NCBI RefSeq assembly: GCF_000966265.1 | Contig: NZ_LANF01000006.1 | Location: 124,001 to 188,000 of the forward strand | Direction: 5' to 3' | Length of the DNA stretch: 64,000 bases | From: Palaeococcus ferrophilus DSM 13482 | GTDB taxonomy: Archaea; Methanobacteriota_B; Thermococci; Thermococcales; Thermococcaceae | Shown here: in pieces, positions 9,073-58,716 of the stretch | Layout: each line of letters starts with the position of its first letter | How positions within the stretch are numbered: the first letter of the stretch is position 1 | Translations under genes and position numbers: made by a program | The notes under the pieces: generated by a model | The model's database searches: none | What the model saw: the letters and a program-made list of their open reading frames with translations, nothing else | Told to the model about the DNA's origin: nothing

Positions 9073-9150
9073 TGGCGGACCGGCGGGGATTCGAACCCCG
9101 GACCCTCGGCTTAGGAGGCCGATGCCCTATCCTGGCTAGGCTACCGGTCC
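9073..9150 (-). tRNA. tRNA-Arg (anticodon CCU)
   Basis: 78 bases including an encoded CCA. Acceptor stem GGACCGG pairs with CCGGTCC, discriminator G. The anticodon stem TCGGC/GCCGA encloses loop CTCCTAA, giving CCU, which reads AGG. T arm CGGGG-TTCGAAT-CCCCG. No intron. A TATA-like GCTTAAATA on this strand (about 9185-9194) is placed correctly; the same AT stretch may serve the divergent Lrp gene. Confidence 0.97.
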
Positions 9151-51099: not shown

Positions 51100-51177
51100 G
51101 GGCCCGTGGTCTAGACTGGTTATGACGTCGCCCTCACACGGCGAAGGTCCGGGGTTCGAATCCCCGCGGGCCCACCA
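51100..51177 (+). tRNA. tRNA-Val (anticodon CAC)
   Basis: 78 bases including CCA. Acceptor GGGCCCG/CGGGCCC with discriminator A. Anticodon stem TCGCC/GGCGA encloses CTCACAC, giving CAC (reads GUG). T arm CGGGG-TTCGAAT-CCCCG. No intron. Its 3' side borders a long non-coding repeat array, so it may be the anchor of an old integrated element; I see no second copy of the tRNA 3' end in the window. Confidence 0.97.
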
Positions 51178-51181
51178 GTAC

Positions 51182-51205
51182 AAACTTCGCCTGCGCGAAG
51201 TTTGA
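51182..51205 (+). repeat. Small hairpin directly after tRNA-Val
   Basis: CAAACTTCGC and GCGAAGTTTG are perfect inverted copies around a 4-base loop. A degenerate relative, CAAACTTTGC...AAAGTTTG with a second stem, occurs at about 52120-52160 before module 4. Both precede a GTTTGATCAAGGTTCGT arm. Confidence 0.8.
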
Positions 51206-51214
51206 TCAAGGTTC

Positions 51215-51451
51215 GTAGCTCTTTGCCAGAATGCTAATTCTACGCGATTTTTCCTGTCGAAAGACTATTTTTGAAAGCGAGAACTCTTAAATTTGTCCCA
51301 TTAACGCGTGTTTAGCTCTAAATCGGCGCTCACAGGGCGCCAAAAGGAAGAAAACACTTTTTCAAAAAGCTCCCCCCGCCGGTTCTCATTCAAAAATAAG
51401 CACTTACACAGCAAAAAATCCCGAATAAAAACCCTTCCTGAGAAGAGCTAC
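51215..51451. repeat. Nested-hairpin module 1
   Basis: Four nested stems about one axis: outer GTAGCTCTT 51215-51223 / AAGAGCTAC 51443-51451 (perfect); 51243-51257 / 51408-51423; 51264-51284 / 51382-51400; inner GTGTTT 51308-51313 / AAACAC 51352-51357; centre GGCGC 51325-51329 / GCGCC 51337-51341. No coding frame accounts for it. Homologous in plan to modules 2-4. Confidence 0.8.
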
Positions 51452-51461
51452 AAACTTTTTA

Positions 51462-51498
51462 GTGAAGCTTTTGGAAAAAGCTTCAGCGCTGGCGGAAG
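51462..51498. repeat. Linker repeat copy 1
   Basis: GAAGCTTTTGGAAAAAGCTTC hairpin (positions 51463-51484) followed by AGCGCTGGCGGAAG. Near-identical to copy 3 at 51950-51986. The short ORFs in this area are readings of this repeat, not genes. Confidence 0.85.
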
Positions 51499-51531
51499 AG
51501 GAGTATGAGATTCTAACAAGCAAGTTTTTAA

Positions 51532-51649
51532 GCGGGTTTACTCCCTAACCTGCTGATTTGGCAGGATTTCCTCATAGTATAGTGCCCAAGGGCACTAAAA
51601 AGAAAGTTCGAAATCACAATTTGCGAATGAGTTTAGAGAGTAAACCCGC
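51532..51649. repeat. Nested-hairpin module 2
   Basis: Outer stem 51532-51548 / 51633-51649 (16 of 17 pairs), inner GATTTC 51565-51570 / GAAATC 51610-51615, central palindrome AGTGCCCAAGGGCACT 51581-51596. The bases flanking the centre (CATAGTAT before, AAAAAGAAAG after) match those of module 3. Confidence 0.82.
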
Positions 51650-51720
51650 ATGGAGTTGCCTCCAGAGCGAGCATACGCCCCTCCAACAAGCTAGTTAAAA
51701 AAAGAAGGGAGAGTTTTTTG

Positions 51721-51765
51721 GTCAAGCTTTTTCCAAAAGCTTGCAGAGCAAAGTTTCATCAAAGG
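51721..51765. repeat. Linker repeat copy 2 (variant)
   Basis: AAGCTTTTTCCAAAAGCTT hairpin at 51724-51742, then a divergent tail GCAGAGCAAAGTTTCATCAA leading into the 5' arm of module 3. The other copies continue with CAGCGCTGGCGGAAG instead. Confidence 0.75.
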
Positions 51766-51768
51766 TGG

Positions 51769-51939
51769 AATGTCCTTGTTAAAGTGCTGGATTCCAGAGG
51801 ATTCTCTCTTCAACTAGCAGTTTTTAAAGGGGTTTCTTCACAGTACAACGCCCGGAGGGCGTTAAAAAAGAAGAAACCGCATTATTCTGCCCACTTGCCC
51901 GGAGAATCCAGCACTATCAGACCAATCCTGGAGGACATT
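51769..51939. repeat. Nested-hairpin module 3
   Basis: Outer AATGTCC 51769-51775 / GGACATT 51933-51939; AGTGCTGGATTC 51783-51794 / GAATCCAGCACT 51904-51915 (perfect 12 pairs); inner GGTTTCTTC 51831-51839 / GAAGAAACC 51870-51878 (perfect 9 pairs); centre AACGCCCGGAGGGCGTT 51847-51863. The clearest of the four modules. Confidence 0.85.
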
Positions 51940-51949
51940 GAAACTTTTG

Positions 51950-51986
51950 GTGAAGCTTTTTTCAAAAGCTTCAGCGCTGGCGGAAG
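51950..51986. repeat. Linker repeat copy 3
   Basis: GTGAAGCTTTTTTCAAAAGC at the start, then TTCAGCGCTGGCGGAAG; differs from copy 1 by only a few bases in the hairpin loop. Confidence 0.85.
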
Positions 51987-52156
51987 AAGAGTGCTATTTT
52001 TAAAACAGGGAAGTTTTTGAGCGAGTTTTGCATTACCTCGTAGTTTTAACCTGTTTCAGTGGCACTTGCCCGTTGCACGATTAATTCCCTGCCCGTTTAA
52101 GAGGCAGAACCCCTTTGATCAAACTTTGCTGTGGAAAGTTTGTTTGCTGAGCAAAA
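51987..52156. other. Spacer between modules 3 and 4
   Basis: No gene. It holds small inverted segments, for example AAAACAGG near 52003 with CCTGTTT near 52050, and the CAAACTTT/AAAGTTTG and TTTGCTGAGCAAA hairpins at about 52120-52155. Confidence 0.5.
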
Positions 52157-52419
52157 GTTTGATCAAGGTTCGTGGTTCCTTCTAAACTGTACTTTTACTA
52201 GGGAATTCCTTCTAAAAACCTCTCCTAGGGTGGAATTTCTCAAATATTGCCCAATTGAACAGGAGTTTTTCTCACTTTGACGCCCTTCGGGCGTCTTTTA
52301 CAATGGAAACTCACGGGTAAAAAGCATACTGGGCTTAGAATTCACAACCACAGGACAGGTTTCTAAGAAAAATCCACTCAGAACAGCTCGCGAACAAGAA
52401 CCACCAACTTTGATGAAAC
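52157..52419. repeat. Nested-hairpin module 4
   Basis: Outer arms 52157-52178 / 52398-52419 (about 18 of 22 positions pair); 52210-52221 / 52357-52369 (imperfect); inner GAGTTT 52263-52268 / AAACTC 52307-52312; centre GACGCCCTTCGGGCGTC 52279-52295. The 5' arm begins GTTTGATCAAGGTTCGT like that of module 1. Confidence 0.8.
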
Positions 52420-52580: not shown

Positions 52581-53432
52581 ATGAAGATACACTACGAGTG
52601 CTTTGCCTGCGCCGCCAACCAGTGCCAGAGGATAGTGGAGATGGGTACAGATAATCTCGAACTGCGGAAGAAGGGCGTTATCGAGGCGGCGAAGCTGATG
52701 GCAAGCATAAGTGGATACTCTGTTCCAGCGATTTTCGGGAGCGAGGTCTTCCTCGGCGTTTACAAGGTCATAGGCAATGACGACCCGTTCAAAGAGTACA
52801 AGGAACTCTCCAACAAGCTTGCGGAGAAGGTCGTAAGCGATCTCGAAAAGGAGGAAATGGACATCAGAACGGCCCTAAAGCTCGCCATCATTGGGAACGT
52901 GATTGACTTCGCAGTAGGCTACTCTCCAGAGAAGATCGAGGAAGACGTAAAGACCATGCTCAAAGAGGAGCTCTACATCGACCACTCAGACGAGCTTTTT
53001 GAGGCTCTCAAAAGCGCGAAGACCCTCCTCTACCTCACTGACAACTGCGGGGAGATTTACTTCGACAGGCTCTTTTTGAAAAAACTAAAAGAGACCTTTC
53101 CGCACCTTGAAATCTACATAGCGGGCAAGGAGGAGCCGATGATAAACGACGCCACCGTTGAAGACCTGAAGAAAGCGGGCTTCGAGGAGCTTGGGAGGGT
53201 AATCTCAACTGGCACGAGGATCGTTGGGGTTCCGCTCGACAGGGTCTCCGAGGAGTTTAAGAGCATTTTCGAAAGTGCCGACGTGATAATAGCGAAGGGC
53301 CAGGGCAACTTTGAGACGCTGAGCGAAATAAACGATACCAGGGTCTTCTACCTCCTCAAGGCGAAGTGCAGGCCGATAGCGAGGGAGCTTGGGGTGCCGC
53401 AGGGGAGCATGGTGTGTATGCGGGCCAGGTAG
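52581..53432 (+). CDS. DUF89/ARMT1-like metal-dependent phosphatase
   Basis: 283 residues. N-terminal helical part with CFACAANQCQRIVEMG; catalytic alpha/beta domain with LTDNCGEIYFDRLFLKKL (the Asp-Asn metal motif), GKEEPMINDATVEDL and VIIAKGQGNFETLSE. DUF89 proteins dephosphorylate damaged or surplus sugar- or nucleotide-phosphates. ATG 52581 is set by GGTGG; an open frame back to 52410 is read from the repeat array and is not coding. Confidence 0.88.
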   Translation: MKIHYECFACAANQCQRIVEMGTDNLELRKKGVIEAAKLMASISGYSVPAIFGSEVFLGVYKVIGNDDPFKEYKELSNKLAEKVVSDLEKEEMDIRTALKLAIIGNVIDFAVGYSPEKIEEDVKTMLKEELYIDHSDELFEALKSAKTLLYLTDNCGEIYFDRLFLKKLKETFPHLEIYIAGKEEPMINDATVEDLKKAGFEELGRVISTGTRIVGVPLDRVSEEFKSIFESADVIIAKGQGNFETLSEINDTRVFYLLKAKCRPIARELGVPQGSMVCMRAR

Positions 53433-53613
53433 GCCGCTTCTCCTCTTTCGGAAACTCCAGCGGGATATTTTGATCATGATCTTATTACTACAGCTCGAAA
53501 ATTCGTTGGTCTCAGAGGGAAGGGCCGCAGAGGCAGTAGCTAAAAGCGTTGAGGAGGAAGGATGTGCTGAGGGACTTCGAAACCCTTATAAGTTCAAAAA
53601 CCTACTCAAGAGT
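53433..53613. other. Intergenic region with a leaderless-type promoter
   Basis: No intact gene. A 3' part from ATG 53475 reads ENSLVSEGRAAEAVAKSVEE, protein-like but running into the ATPase frame without a start signal; perhaps a remnant. TTATAAG at 53586-53592 is centred 25 bases before the ATPase ATG at 53614. Confidence 0.4.
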
Positions 53614-54987
53614 ATGATACTCACGAGTAAGTTCATTGACAGGGAGGCGGAGCTGAACTTCCTGAGGGAGCGCTATAACTCTGGAGAGGCAGAGCTGATA
53701 ATCCTCTACGGCAGGAGGAGGATTGGGAAGACCTACCTCCTGCGGAAGTTCCTTGAGGAGACCGGTGGGGTATACCTCCTCGCGGAGGAGAACGAGACCA
53801 ACCTCGAGGATTTCTCATTAAGACTGGCCGACTACTTCAAAGACCCCTTCCTTAGGGAGAACCCCATAAGGAGCTGGGGGGCTTTCTTCACCTATCTGGC
53901 GGGGAAGAGCGGGGAGAGGCTCGTTGTGGTGATAGATGAAGTCCAGTATCTCGCTCGGTCGGACAGGGGCTTCCTCAGCACGCTCCAGAAGTACTGGGAT
54001 TTGCACCTCTCGAACACGAGGATAATGCTCGTCCTCTGCGGCTCCCTTGTCTCCTTCATGGAGGGCATGTTATCAGCAAAGTCTCCTATCTACGGAAGGA
54101 GAACGGGAGCCTGGAAGGTGGACGAGATAGGCTTCTTCGATGCCCTTGAGTTCCACCCGATTGACATCGAGACTGCCGTTAAGGTCTATTCGGTCTTCGG
54201 CGGCGTCCCCCAGTACTGGGCGGACTACGACCCGAGTAAGGGCTTCTGGGACAACATGAGAGCTTTGCTCCTCTCGAAGGGGGCGAAGTACTACGACGAG
54301 CCCAAGTACCTCCTCAAGGAGGAGCTCAGGGACGTTTCGAGGTACTTCTCCATACTTCGGGCGATAGCGCTCGGTTACACGCGCTTCGGCCAGATAGCGA
54401 ACAAGGCGAAGATAGAGACGAAGAGCCTCGGCAAGTACCTCAACGTCCTGGAGGAGATGGGCTACGTTCGAGAGGAAAAGCCCGTGGTCGGCAGGGGGAG
54501 GGGCGTTTACAGGATAAGCGATGCCCTCTTCAACTTCTGGTTCCGGTTCGCCTTCCCTCGGAGGGACGAGATAGAGATGGGCTTCGACGTCGTGGAGGGT
54601 ATAAAGGACGAGTTCAGCGAGTACCTCGGTTTAGCCTTTGAGGGGATAGCGAAGCAGTTTCTGGTTGAGCTGAACAGGGCTGGAGAGCTCCCCTTCCGCT
54701 TTACCAAGATCGGCCGCTGGTGGCGTAAGGGGGAGGAGATTGATTTGGTGGCTTTGAACGAGCGGGAGAAGAAGGCGTTGTTCGTCGAGGTTAAGTGGAA
54801 GGATTTGAGCGAGAGAGAAGCGAGGGGAATTCTGAAAGACCTTGAAAGAAAGGCCGAGCTCGTCGGGCTTGACGGCTGGGAGAAATATTACGGGCTGGTC
54901 GCCAAAAAAGTCGAGAGAAAGGAGAGACTAAGAGGAGAAGGCTGGCTGGTCTGGGACTTGGGGAACTTCGGGCAGTTAGGGAAGTGA
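53614..54987 (+). CDS. Archaeal ATPase PF01637 with DUF234 nuclease-like C-terminus, copy 1
   Basis: 457 residues. STAND/AAA-like ATPase: Walker A ILYGRRRIGKTYLLRKF (near 29-45), Walker B VVVIDEVQYLAR, sensor VLCGSLVSFMEGML, then a winged helix (TRFGQIANKAKIETKSLGKYLNVLEEMGYV). The C-terminal DUF234 has a PD-(D/E)XK pattern: EEIDLVALNEREKKALFVEVKWKD. The family is expanded and patchy in Thermococcales; roles are unproven, though mobile or defence functions have been suggested. ATG 53614 lies 25 bases from a TATA centre, so the mRNA is probably leaderless. Confidence 0.9.
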   Translation: MILTSKFIDREAELNFLRERYNSGEAELIILYGRRRIGKTYLLRKFLEETGGVYLLAEENETNLEDFSLRLADYFKDPFLRENPIRSWGAFFTYLAGKSGERLVVVIDEVQYLARSDRGFLSTLQKYWDLHLSNTRIMLVLCGSLVSFMEGMLSAKSPIYGRRTGAWKVDEIGFFDALEFHPIDIETAVKVYSVFGGVPQYWADYDPSKGFWDNMRALLLSKGAKYYDEPKYLLKEELRDVSRYFSILRAIALGYTRFGQIANKAKIETKSLGKYLNVLEEMGYVREEKPVVGRGRGVYRISDALFNFWFRFAFPRRDEIEMGFDVVEGIKDEFSEYLGLAFEGIAKQFLVELNRAGELPFRFTKIGRWWRKGEEIDLVALNEREKKALFVEVKWKDLSEREARGILKDLERKAELVGLDGWEKYYGLVAKKVERKERLRGEGWLVWDLGNFGQLGK

Positions 54988-57363: not shown

Positions 57364-58716
57364 ATGATACAACAATTTGTTGACAGGAAGAACGAACTCG
57401 ATGCCCTCGAAAGGGCATGGAAAAGCGAAGGGTCAGAAATGATAGTTATCTACGGCAGGAGAAGAGTTGGCAAGACTGCTCTCACCCTCAGATTCATTGA
57501 GGGGAAGCCTGCGGTGTACTTTCTCGCCGATGAAAGGGGGGAAGAAAACCTTGGGGAGTTCAGGAGGAAGGTAGCGGAGTTCTTTGACGATCCAGTGCTC
57601 GGGAGGTCGGACCTCGGCTGGCTTGAGCTTTTTGAATATCTTGCCAGAAAGGGTGAAAAGCTCGTCGTGGTGATTGACGAGCTCCCCTACATCGTAGAGC
57701 ACGATAAGGCCTTTCCCTCGGTGCTCCAGAAAGCGTGGGATTCCCACCTTCAGGAATCCACCGTGAAACTCGTGCTCGTGGGGTCGTCCATAGGCATGAT
57801 GGAGGACCTCCTCGGGTATAAAAGCCCTCTCTACGGCAGGAGGACGATGCAGATCGAGCTTAAACCGCTGAGATACTGGCACGTTAGGGAGTTCCTGCCG
57901 TCCTACTCGGAGGGGGACCTTATGAGGGTCTACGGTGCCGTTGACGGCATTCCCCTTTACCTCCGGCAGTTCAGGGATGAGCTAAGCTTTTGGGAAAACC
58001 TCGAAAACCTCATGCTTAGGAAGGAGAGCTTCCTCTACGCGGAGGCCGAGTTTCTTCTGAGGCAGGAGTTCAGGGAGCCGGCGAGATACTTCGCGATCCT
58101 GAGGGCGATATCGCTCGGAAAGACGAAGCACGGAGAGATAGTGGACTACACGGGATTTGACAGGGGAGTGGTCTCGAAGTACCTCGACAACCTCGCCAAG
58201 ATAAGGGTGGTCAGAAAGGTTTACCCTGCCTTTGAGCCGGAGAAGAGAAGGAACATGAGGTACGAGATGGCCGACAACTACTACGCCTTCTGGTTCCGCT
58301 TCGTCTATCCTAACAGGGAGCTCGTCGAAAGGGAACTCTACAGTGAAGCCTTGGAGGTTGTAAAGAGAGACTACGACCACTACATGGGCAGGGTGTTTGA
58401 AAAAGCCTCCCTCGACTTCCTGTGGAAGCGCTTCGCCTTCAAGCGTGCCGGAAGGTGGTGGGGTAGGAGAGAAGAAATCGACGTCGTGGGGCTCAAGGGT
58501 GGAACAGCCCACTTTTTTGAGGTAAAGTGGAAGGAATTGAAGGAGAGGGAAGCGAAGGGAATTCTAAAAGACCTTGAGAGGAAGGCGGAACTCGTAAACA
58601 AGCTGAAAGGTCTACCGAAGAGGTTTGGGCTGGTGGCGAGGAGAATCGAGGGGAAGGAGAGGCTCGCCGATGAGGGCTACTTGGTGTTCGACCTCAAAGA
58701 CATGTTCAAGTCCTAA
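57364..58716 (+). CDS. Archaeal ATPase PF01637 with DUF234 nuclease-like C-terminus, copy 2
   Basis: 450 residues, paralogue of the protein at 53614 with the same domain order. Walker A VIYGRRRVGKTALTLRF, Walker B VVVIDELPYIVE, sensor LVGSSIGMMEDLL, winged helix (KHGEIVDYTGFDRGVVSKYLDNL), C-terminal PD-(D/E)XK-like EEIDVVGLKGGTAHFFEVKWKEL with a matching RWWGRREE before it, as copy 1 has RWWRKGEE. Catalytic residues intact in both. The stop overlaps the convergent DUF763 gene by 4 bases. Confidence 0.92.
   Translation: MIQQFVDRKNELDALERAWKSEGSEMIVIYGRRRVGKTALTLRFIEGKPAVYFLADERGEENLGEFRRKVAEFFDDPVLGRSDLGWLELFEYLARKGEKLVVVIDELPYIVEHDKAFPSVLQKAWDSHLQESTVKLVLVGSSIGMMEDLLGYKSPLYGRRTMQIELKPLRYWHVREFLPSYSEGDLMRVYGAVDGIPLYLRQFRDELSFWENLENLMLRKESFLYAEAEFLLRQEFREPARYFAILRAISLGKTKHGEIVDYTGFDRGVVSKYLDNLAKIRVVRKVYPAFEPEKRRNMRYEMADNYYAFWFRFVYPNRELVERELYSEALEVVKRDYDHYMGRVFEKASLDFLWKRFAFKRAGRWWGRREEIDVVGLKGGTAHFFEVKWKELKEREAKGILKDLERKAELVNKLKGLPKRFGLVARRIEGKERLADEGYLVFDLKDMFKS

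Follow-up and report, generated by a model that had tools for sequence, protein, structure and literature searches.

The array that lies directly 3' of a tRNA-Val gene in Palaeococcus ferrophilus DSM 13482 is, we propose, a tandem of mobile hairpin DNA repeats, which would be copied as single units and would enter behind tRNA genes or beside units already resident, a reading to which we assign a probability of roughly 0.6. The array is the intergenic region that starts behind that gene, inside the stretch of 64,000 nucleotides that we analysed as a whole (the window), and the profile labels along it read C2(+), A(+), B(+), A fragment, C1(-) (Table 1). At gathering score, Rfam matched only 5S rRNA and two tRNAs in the whole window, and no family in the array apart from the tRNA; the window's other tRNA gene, at 9076-9150 on the reverse strand, has no recognised unit in its fetched flank.

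Table 1. Features of the array, with positions in the window, strand and basis of each call.
Feature	Positions	Strand	Basis
tRNA-Val (CAC) gene, CCA encoded	51100-51177	+	Rfam RF00005 51100-51174, 65.3 bits; ARAGORN
Head hairpin CAAACTTCGC-CTGC-GCGAAGTTTG, then ATCAAGG; 3 nt past the tRNA-Val CCA	51181-51204	+	Sequence, scan, spacing of similar heads
Module 1, subfamily C2 unit	51209-51458	+	nhmmer 162 bits; fold z -3.8
Module 1 inner stem and centre	51308-51357	+	Nested-hairpin check
Junction hairpin TGAAGCTTTTGGAAAAAGCTTCA	51463-51485	+	Sequence
Module 2, subfamily A unit	51471-51710	+	nhmmer 208 bits; fold z -5.6
Recurrent stretch, copy at G000:C15:18001-18275	51485-51759	+	98.5% identity
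Module 2 inner stem and centre	51565-51615	+	Nested-hairpin check
Junction hairpin CAAGCTTTTTCCAAAAGCTTG	51723-51743	+	Sequence
Module 3, subfamily B unit	51731-51977	+	nhmmer 202 bits; fold z -5.9
Module 3 inner stem and centre	51831-51878	+	Nested-hairpin check
Partial further subfamily A unit	51960-52028	+	nhmmer 24 bits
Hairpin ahead of the last unit, TTGATCAAACTTT / AAAGTTTGATCAA	52115-52166	+	Sequence
Module 4, subfamily C1 unit, inverted relative to the other modules	52164-52409	-	nhmmer 197 bits; fold z -3.4
Module 4 inner stem and centre	52263-52312	-	Nested-hairpin check

The original prediction had singled out four hairpin modules whose inner stems differ in sequence yet always pair. 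All four stems are present where it had placed them, namely GTGTTT (51308-51313) with AAACAC (51352-51357) in module 1, GATTTC (51565-51570) with GAAATC (51610-51615) in module 2, GGTTTC (51831-51836) with GAAACC (51873-51878) in module 3, and GAGTTT (52263-52268) with AAACTC (52307-52312) in module 4, and the palindromic centres of the four modules lie at their claimed positions too. The spacing between stem and centre, described there as kept in modules 1-3, is 11 nt on the left in all four modules and 10, 14, 10 and 12 nt on the right, and the purine tract 3' of the centre is seen in modules 1-3, that of module 4 being on the other strand because this module is inverted. These stems are the inner part only of a larger structure, every module being an imperfect palindrome of ~250 nt. 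Under one counting rule, the 1,384-nt array contains four nested hairpins, a number reached by none of its 500 dinucleotide shuffles (mean 0.084, maximum 3), and 44 other tiles of the window hold 0.16 on average and two at most. Whole modules 1-4 also fold better than their own shuffles (fold z in Table 1), whilst a simple arm-alignment palindrome score over the whole window could not tell the modules from shuffles; a score limited to GC-rich hairpin centres did better, with 43 of 221 centres in the collected loci exceeding z 4 (12 shuffles each).

The array belongs to a dispersed family. BLAST with the array found a match in 75 of 94 Thermococcaceae genomes, including all three of the window's own genus, and within its own genome it found a 275-nt copy at 99% identity as well as weaker copies elsewhere. 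The 19 genomes in which this search found no match comprise all nine of genus g2 (G003-G011), three of g3 (G034, G045, G072), six of g4 (G075, G078, G079, G082-G084) and one of g5 (G088); this absence is patchy: no g2 genome has a match, and in the other genera the gaps are single genomes, of which some are incomplete. Queries of one unit each matched 8 (A), 58 (B), 52 (C1) and 57 (C2) of the 94 genomes, partly via their ends alone. Aligned on their centres, the modules fall into subfamilies A, B, C1, C2 and a smaller D, and a profile search of the collected loci recovered 318 distinct full-length units (99 A, 58 B, 86 C1 and 75 C2, the A profile also capturing D-like units), each an imperfect palindrome of ~250 nt with short hairpins at its ends, and arranged in arrays.

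Beyond the family, a 19-nt head pattern searched over 84,980 species gave 26 stretches, 23 of them in Thermococcales records; the profiles confirmed a unit in 22 of these 23 and found none in the three outside Thermococcales. BLAST against plasmid and phage collections returned no match to the units, the C-head pattern occurred in no viral contig, and the A-head pattern occurred in 19 viral contigs, three with a profile match of ~30 nt and none with a unit. Going by these searches, dispersed hairpin DNA repeats of this kind appear so far only in Thermococcus and close genera, and a literature search, with subscription journals mostly outside its reach, found no account of them.

The position of the units relative to tRNA genes is one-sided. 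Among 315 deduplicated units, 239 lie on the 3' side of the nearest tRNA and six on the 5' side, and the fetched flank of the other 70 contains no tRNA; for units 3' of a tRNA, orientation is largely set by subfamily, the ratio of same to opposite being 73:5 for A, 38:0 for B, 54:5 for C2 and 11:53 for C1. These loci were retrieved by similarity to units and not to tRNAs, and related species are counted repeatedly. Counts over all Rfam tRNA matches of a genome escape the bias of unit-based retrieval: in a second genome (G023), a unit lies within 100 nt of the 3' end of 20 of 43 tRNAs, two of these being the first of a tandem pair, and in the window's own genome (G000) the same holds for five of 44, one counting only as the first of a tandem tRNA pair, with one more tRNA (L375) carrying a head hairpin and no recognised unit. 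At the 5' end the count is zero in both genomes (0/43 and 0/44). The 70 units without a tRNA in their flank and the low count of five in 44 both weigh against the mobile-repeat reading.

At the level of arrays, nine of 170 are ambiguous and 155 others have a feature on their head side; these 155 heads lie behind a tRNA 3' end in 106 cases, behind a CDS 3' end in 26 and beside a CDS 5' end in 23 (CDS neighbours being naive ORF calls), and the median distance from array to tRNA is 30 nt. Spacing is narrower still when measured from the CCA: of 325 distinct CCA-bearing tRNA 3' flanks in the collected loci, 169 have a head motif within 20 nt, and in 160 of these 169 the distance is 2-6 nt within that 20-nt search range. 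By type, the distance from the CCA is 2-3 nt for 54 of the 59 heads of B and 27 of the 28 of A, and 2-6 nt for 79 of the 82 of C, although these counts ask for the motif only and not the hairpin, and most of the loci were fetched because they hold units. Head hairpins (e.g. at L279, L301, L302 and L306) vary in step, as CAAACTT..AAGTTTG, GAAACTT..AAGTTTC, CAGC..GCTG and CAAC..GTTG. At L306, a single palindromic stretch (2078-2440) fills the gap between two convergent tRNA genes, starting 3 nt from one gene's CCA and 2 nt from the other's.

Such a position could suggest that the units are tRNA transcription terminators or insulators, held by selection behind highly transcribed genes. Their 3' placement favours this idea, and PMC3733652 records that such roles have been proposed for bacterial REPs. 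However, T5 runs in the sense of the tRNA are not general (73 of 91 A, 48 of 56 B, 45 of 68 C2 and 28 of 78 C1 units), C1 has A5 runs in 66 of 78 units, and most tRNAs of the window's genome, together with 23 of 43 in G023, are without a unit within 100 nt. We consider a terminator or insulator role improbable.

Which unit sits behind a given tRNA varies between species. For the window's tRNA-Val locus we fetched the 30 best of 80 matching genomes, and 29 of the loci contain the tRNA: a unit or fragment starts within 120 nt of it in 25 and none does in four, and across these species all four subfamilies appear, in six combinations of subfamily and orientation, some with weak scores. The same tRNA locus carries different units in different species. 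Within single genomes, conversely, similar units recur at different loci, as nine of 11 pairs of similar units gave a long match above 88% identity, at 92-99%. A second tRNA-Val gene of the window's genome (G000:C15) is followed by a 98.5% identical copy of the stretch 51485-51759. That copy heads its locus; its counterpart in the window lies inside the array, and the head sequence behind the tRNA differs. In the window/G000:C15 pair, in G068 and in one G077 match, the first matching letters are precisely AGCGCTGGCGG, which forms the 3' half of an end hairpin, and in a second G077 match both start and end fall in end hairpins. Counting against the mobile-repeat reading, the match reaches the adjacent tRNA gene in several pairs (L245/L246, L233/L115 and L259/L258) and begins inside a unit in two (L192/L224 and L229/L230). 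Together, the within-genome copies fit single-unit copying, as judged from the sequences compared, and gene conversion between resident arrays could have made some of them.

Another way to move units between tRNA loci would be recombination inside the tRNA genes themselves, for instance by tRNA-specific tyrosine integrases, the units being otherwise passive. There is a precedent in a Thermococcus plasmid integrase that recombines tRNA genes, as parts of PMC5495485 and PMC8371274 describe, and some of our matches do extend into the 3' part of a tRNA. Yet the two 98.5% identical copies stand within the array in the window and at the head of the other locus, after different head sequence, and a few units also follow the stop codons of protein genes (L011 and L013, by eye). 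We regard this passive route as very unlikely.

What, then, of the pairing itself? In the original prediction, sequence change with preserved pairing was taken as the signature of selection on structure. Each of the four modules represents its own subfamily, and all four subfamilies occur throughout the family; the stem differences between modules therefore do not amount to four separate compensations within a single lineage. Within subfamilies we used 293 non-redundant units (91, 56, 78 and 68 sequences), having dropped those more than 90% identical or less than 80% complete. RNAalifold on whole-unit MAFFT alignments gave the centre and a few pairs at most, and none in C2, so the majority sequence was folded to obtain consensus structures; a MAFFT core alignment, built on 65 modules, shifted the right-arm register of subfamily A and was therefore left out of the tests. 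In every subfamily, double changes from one Watson-Crick pair to another on the same branch are more frequent than under a tree null (A 45 v 12.1, B 29 v 6.0, C1 50 v 14.2, C2 29 v 15.5), the excess being largest in the centre of A (20 v 0.6); the inner stems account for A 5 v 0.8, B 2 v 0.5, C1 5 v 0.2 and C2 1 v 0.7. Pair-breaking changes are far more numerous than compensated ones and also exceed their null (A 924 v 645, B 482 v 387, C1 1084 v 688, C2 926 v 654), partly because more pairs exist to break.

Other measures agree with a loose constraint. When right arms were permuted among units, a unit's own arm paired little better than a swapped one (A 36.9 v 35.6, z 0.8; B 52.3 v 47.5, z 2.8; C 45.6 v 44.2, z 0.5; D 45.6 v 38.8, z 1.3), and a mixed group of nine unclassified centres gave 32.1 v 11.1 (z 4.8); counted as Watson-Crick pairing, arm swapping causes a slight loss, at z 11.1, 7.9, 8.4 and 0.6 with relatedness uncorrected. 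Covariation had been put forward as the check, and in an R-scape-like G-test with a tree null a single column pair of 118,130 exceeded the null maximum; it lies outside the consensus structure. RNase P RNA of the same family, treated alike, had none above its null maximum either, so the power of this test is low. At pooled p<0.05, 10/72, 16/72, 14/90 and 5/90 structure pairs stand out by subfamily; at pooled p<0.001, 6/72, 4/72, 4/90 and 0/90 do so, against 16/81 in RNase P RNA. Pairing in the units is kept, then, and kept loosely. Part of what is kept could stem from copying or block exchange between units, as same-branch double changes can be obtained by block exchange as well.

Whether one RNA strand is the object of this constraint can be read from single-side changes, as a selected RNA strand would tolerate changes to G-U more than changes to A-C. 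Over 130 core pairs, which were picked with their helices after pairing levels had been inspected, 286 change events lead to G-U and 271 to A-C (p 0.55), which by subfamily is A 54/56, B 66/51, C1 120/117 and C2 46/47. Each subfamily has an almost constant orientation to the tRNA, so the same balance holds when events are read on the tRNA-sense strand. Pooled cells, in which inherited changes are repeated, give 534 v 449 overall, 311 v 200 in C1 and the reverse in A (61 v 87), and an earlier tally on 59 modules gave 63 v 47. As a control we used RNase P RNA (90 genomes had a match, and their 30 best-scoring loci yielded 28 distinct sequences), as tRNA acceptor stems proved too invariant to serve (four G-U and no A-C in 94 tRNAs). 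RNase P RNA shows 31 G-U against 8 A-C events, and its compensated double changes number 43 where the null gives 1.65, although its structure came from RNAalifold with G-U pairs accepted, so that the control leans towards G-U. The units differ from RNase P RNA in this balance, which lends no support to selection on one RNA strand; the loose constraint therefore acts on the DNA, or on neither strand in particular. Of the original claim of selection on structure, what stands is that pairing is kept to some degree, with compensated changes above the tree null.

Could the modules nonetheless be structured non-coding RNAs, or trailers of tRNA transcripts, with their base pairs under selection? We tested this idea first, and arm permutation, covariation, the G-U balance and the RNase P RNA control each set it back. 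The strong predicted folds, the compensated double changes above the phylogenetic null, the position and orientation 3' of tRNA genes and the G-U lean of the pooled cells, which comes through C1 alone, all speak for it. On the other side, C1 mostly runs against the tRNA direction, so that its lean would favour the antisense strand, breaking changes are frequent, and the make-up of units at one locus varies between species. Nor did Rfam bring a candidate family: besides the result at gathering score, a permissive search of the array gave mir-218 as the sole sub-threshold match off the tRNA, with a score of 19.8 bits where the cut-off is 62 (E 0.21). An RNA function of this sort seems unlikely to us.

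Among known systems, the closest kind is REPIN/RAYT of bacteria. REPINs, as described in PMC3116915, are dispersed and clustered, with a spacer that varies yet keeps its length and its folding, and with compensatory changes; our units resemble them as dispersed, clustered extragenic units with a variable spacer that keeps its length and still folds, and in their compensatory changes. As to the two inverted conserved ends that frame a REPIN spacer, C1 and C2 have such ends (outer helix pairing 0.89 in C2), whereas the two ends of A differ; conserved blocks mark the ends of C1 and C2 but equally their centre, and the picture is mixed for A and B. By contrast, the Thermococcaceae units are archaeal, ~250 nt long, divided into at least four subfamilies and located behind tRNA genes. 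The analogy suggests that the units behave like REPINs, without establishing that they belong to the REPIN/RAYT class. That they are true REPINs, moved by a Y1 transposase (RAYT or IS200-like), we hold to be improbable: the variable spacer that keeps its length and still folds would suit such an enzyme, and the window's genome and G023 have one Y1 match each, but Pfam Y1_Tnp (PF01797) was found in 25 of the 94 genomes and in none of four unit-rich ones (G027, G029, G031 and G068), although a divergent enzyme could be missed and the G068 assembly is in 50 contigs.

Other relatives are more distant. REP and BIME sequences are palindromic repeats that follow the 3' ends of genes and form arrays in which types alternate; our arrays of 3'-end palindromes are similar, with much longer palindromes and placement at tRNA genes. 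Like MITEs, the units are small, have inverted arms and are too small for a transposase gene, but they are palindromic throughout and not just at their ends. Finally, integron attC sites are imperfect DNA hairpins that are recognised by shape more than by sequence and stand in oriented arrays; the imperfect DNA hairpins described here resemble them in this, with no cassette genes between the units.

Returning to mobile hairpin DNA repeats as the preferred reading, we posit that single units would spread by copying, that the end hairpins would serve as boundaries of the copied unit, and that the copy would enter 3' of a tRNA gene or beside a unit already there. A need for the DNA itself to fold, with either strand forming the hairpin, may explain why the inner palindrome is loosely kept; alternatively, copying may rewrite both arms. 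Movement, the role of the end hairpins and the existence of an enzyme are what we infer from the sequence comparisons, in contrast to the position, spacing, orientation, dispersal and turnover of the units, which the genomes themselves display. More tentatively, and with odds that we would place clearly below even, these may be archaeal non-autonomous mobile hairpins served by an enzyme that recognises folded DNA and lands narrowly behind the tRNA CCA, the arrays growing unit by unit; the landing site, recognised as folded DNA, would be either the tRNA gene or a resident unit's end hairpin. Bacteria are known to have hairpin repeats whose body varies freely and still folds, and here they occur in hyperthermophilic archaea at a narrow distance behind tRNA genes. 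Considering this spacing and an orientation set by subfamily, what targets the 3' ends of tRNA genes so precisely? The array is also a worked case of apparent RNA-like compensation without an RNA-strand signature, in which a claim of covariation drawn from a few hairpins would mislead.

Two further observations concern the surroundings of the arrays. A second repeated stretch, G-rich and with several GC hairpins, adjoins arrays in several genomes (L302 at about 2370-2540, L304 at about 2370-2500, L004 at about 1370-1500, L088 at about 1204 and L089 at about 962); Rfam gave no match to it at gathering score, and in six related loci it matched only 5S rRNA and tRNAs. In the window itself, two ORFs alike in appearance (53389-54987 and 57364-58716), which we take to be perhaps paralogous archaeal ATPases, each carry a YGRRRxGKT motif and stand on either side of a 612-aa ORF.
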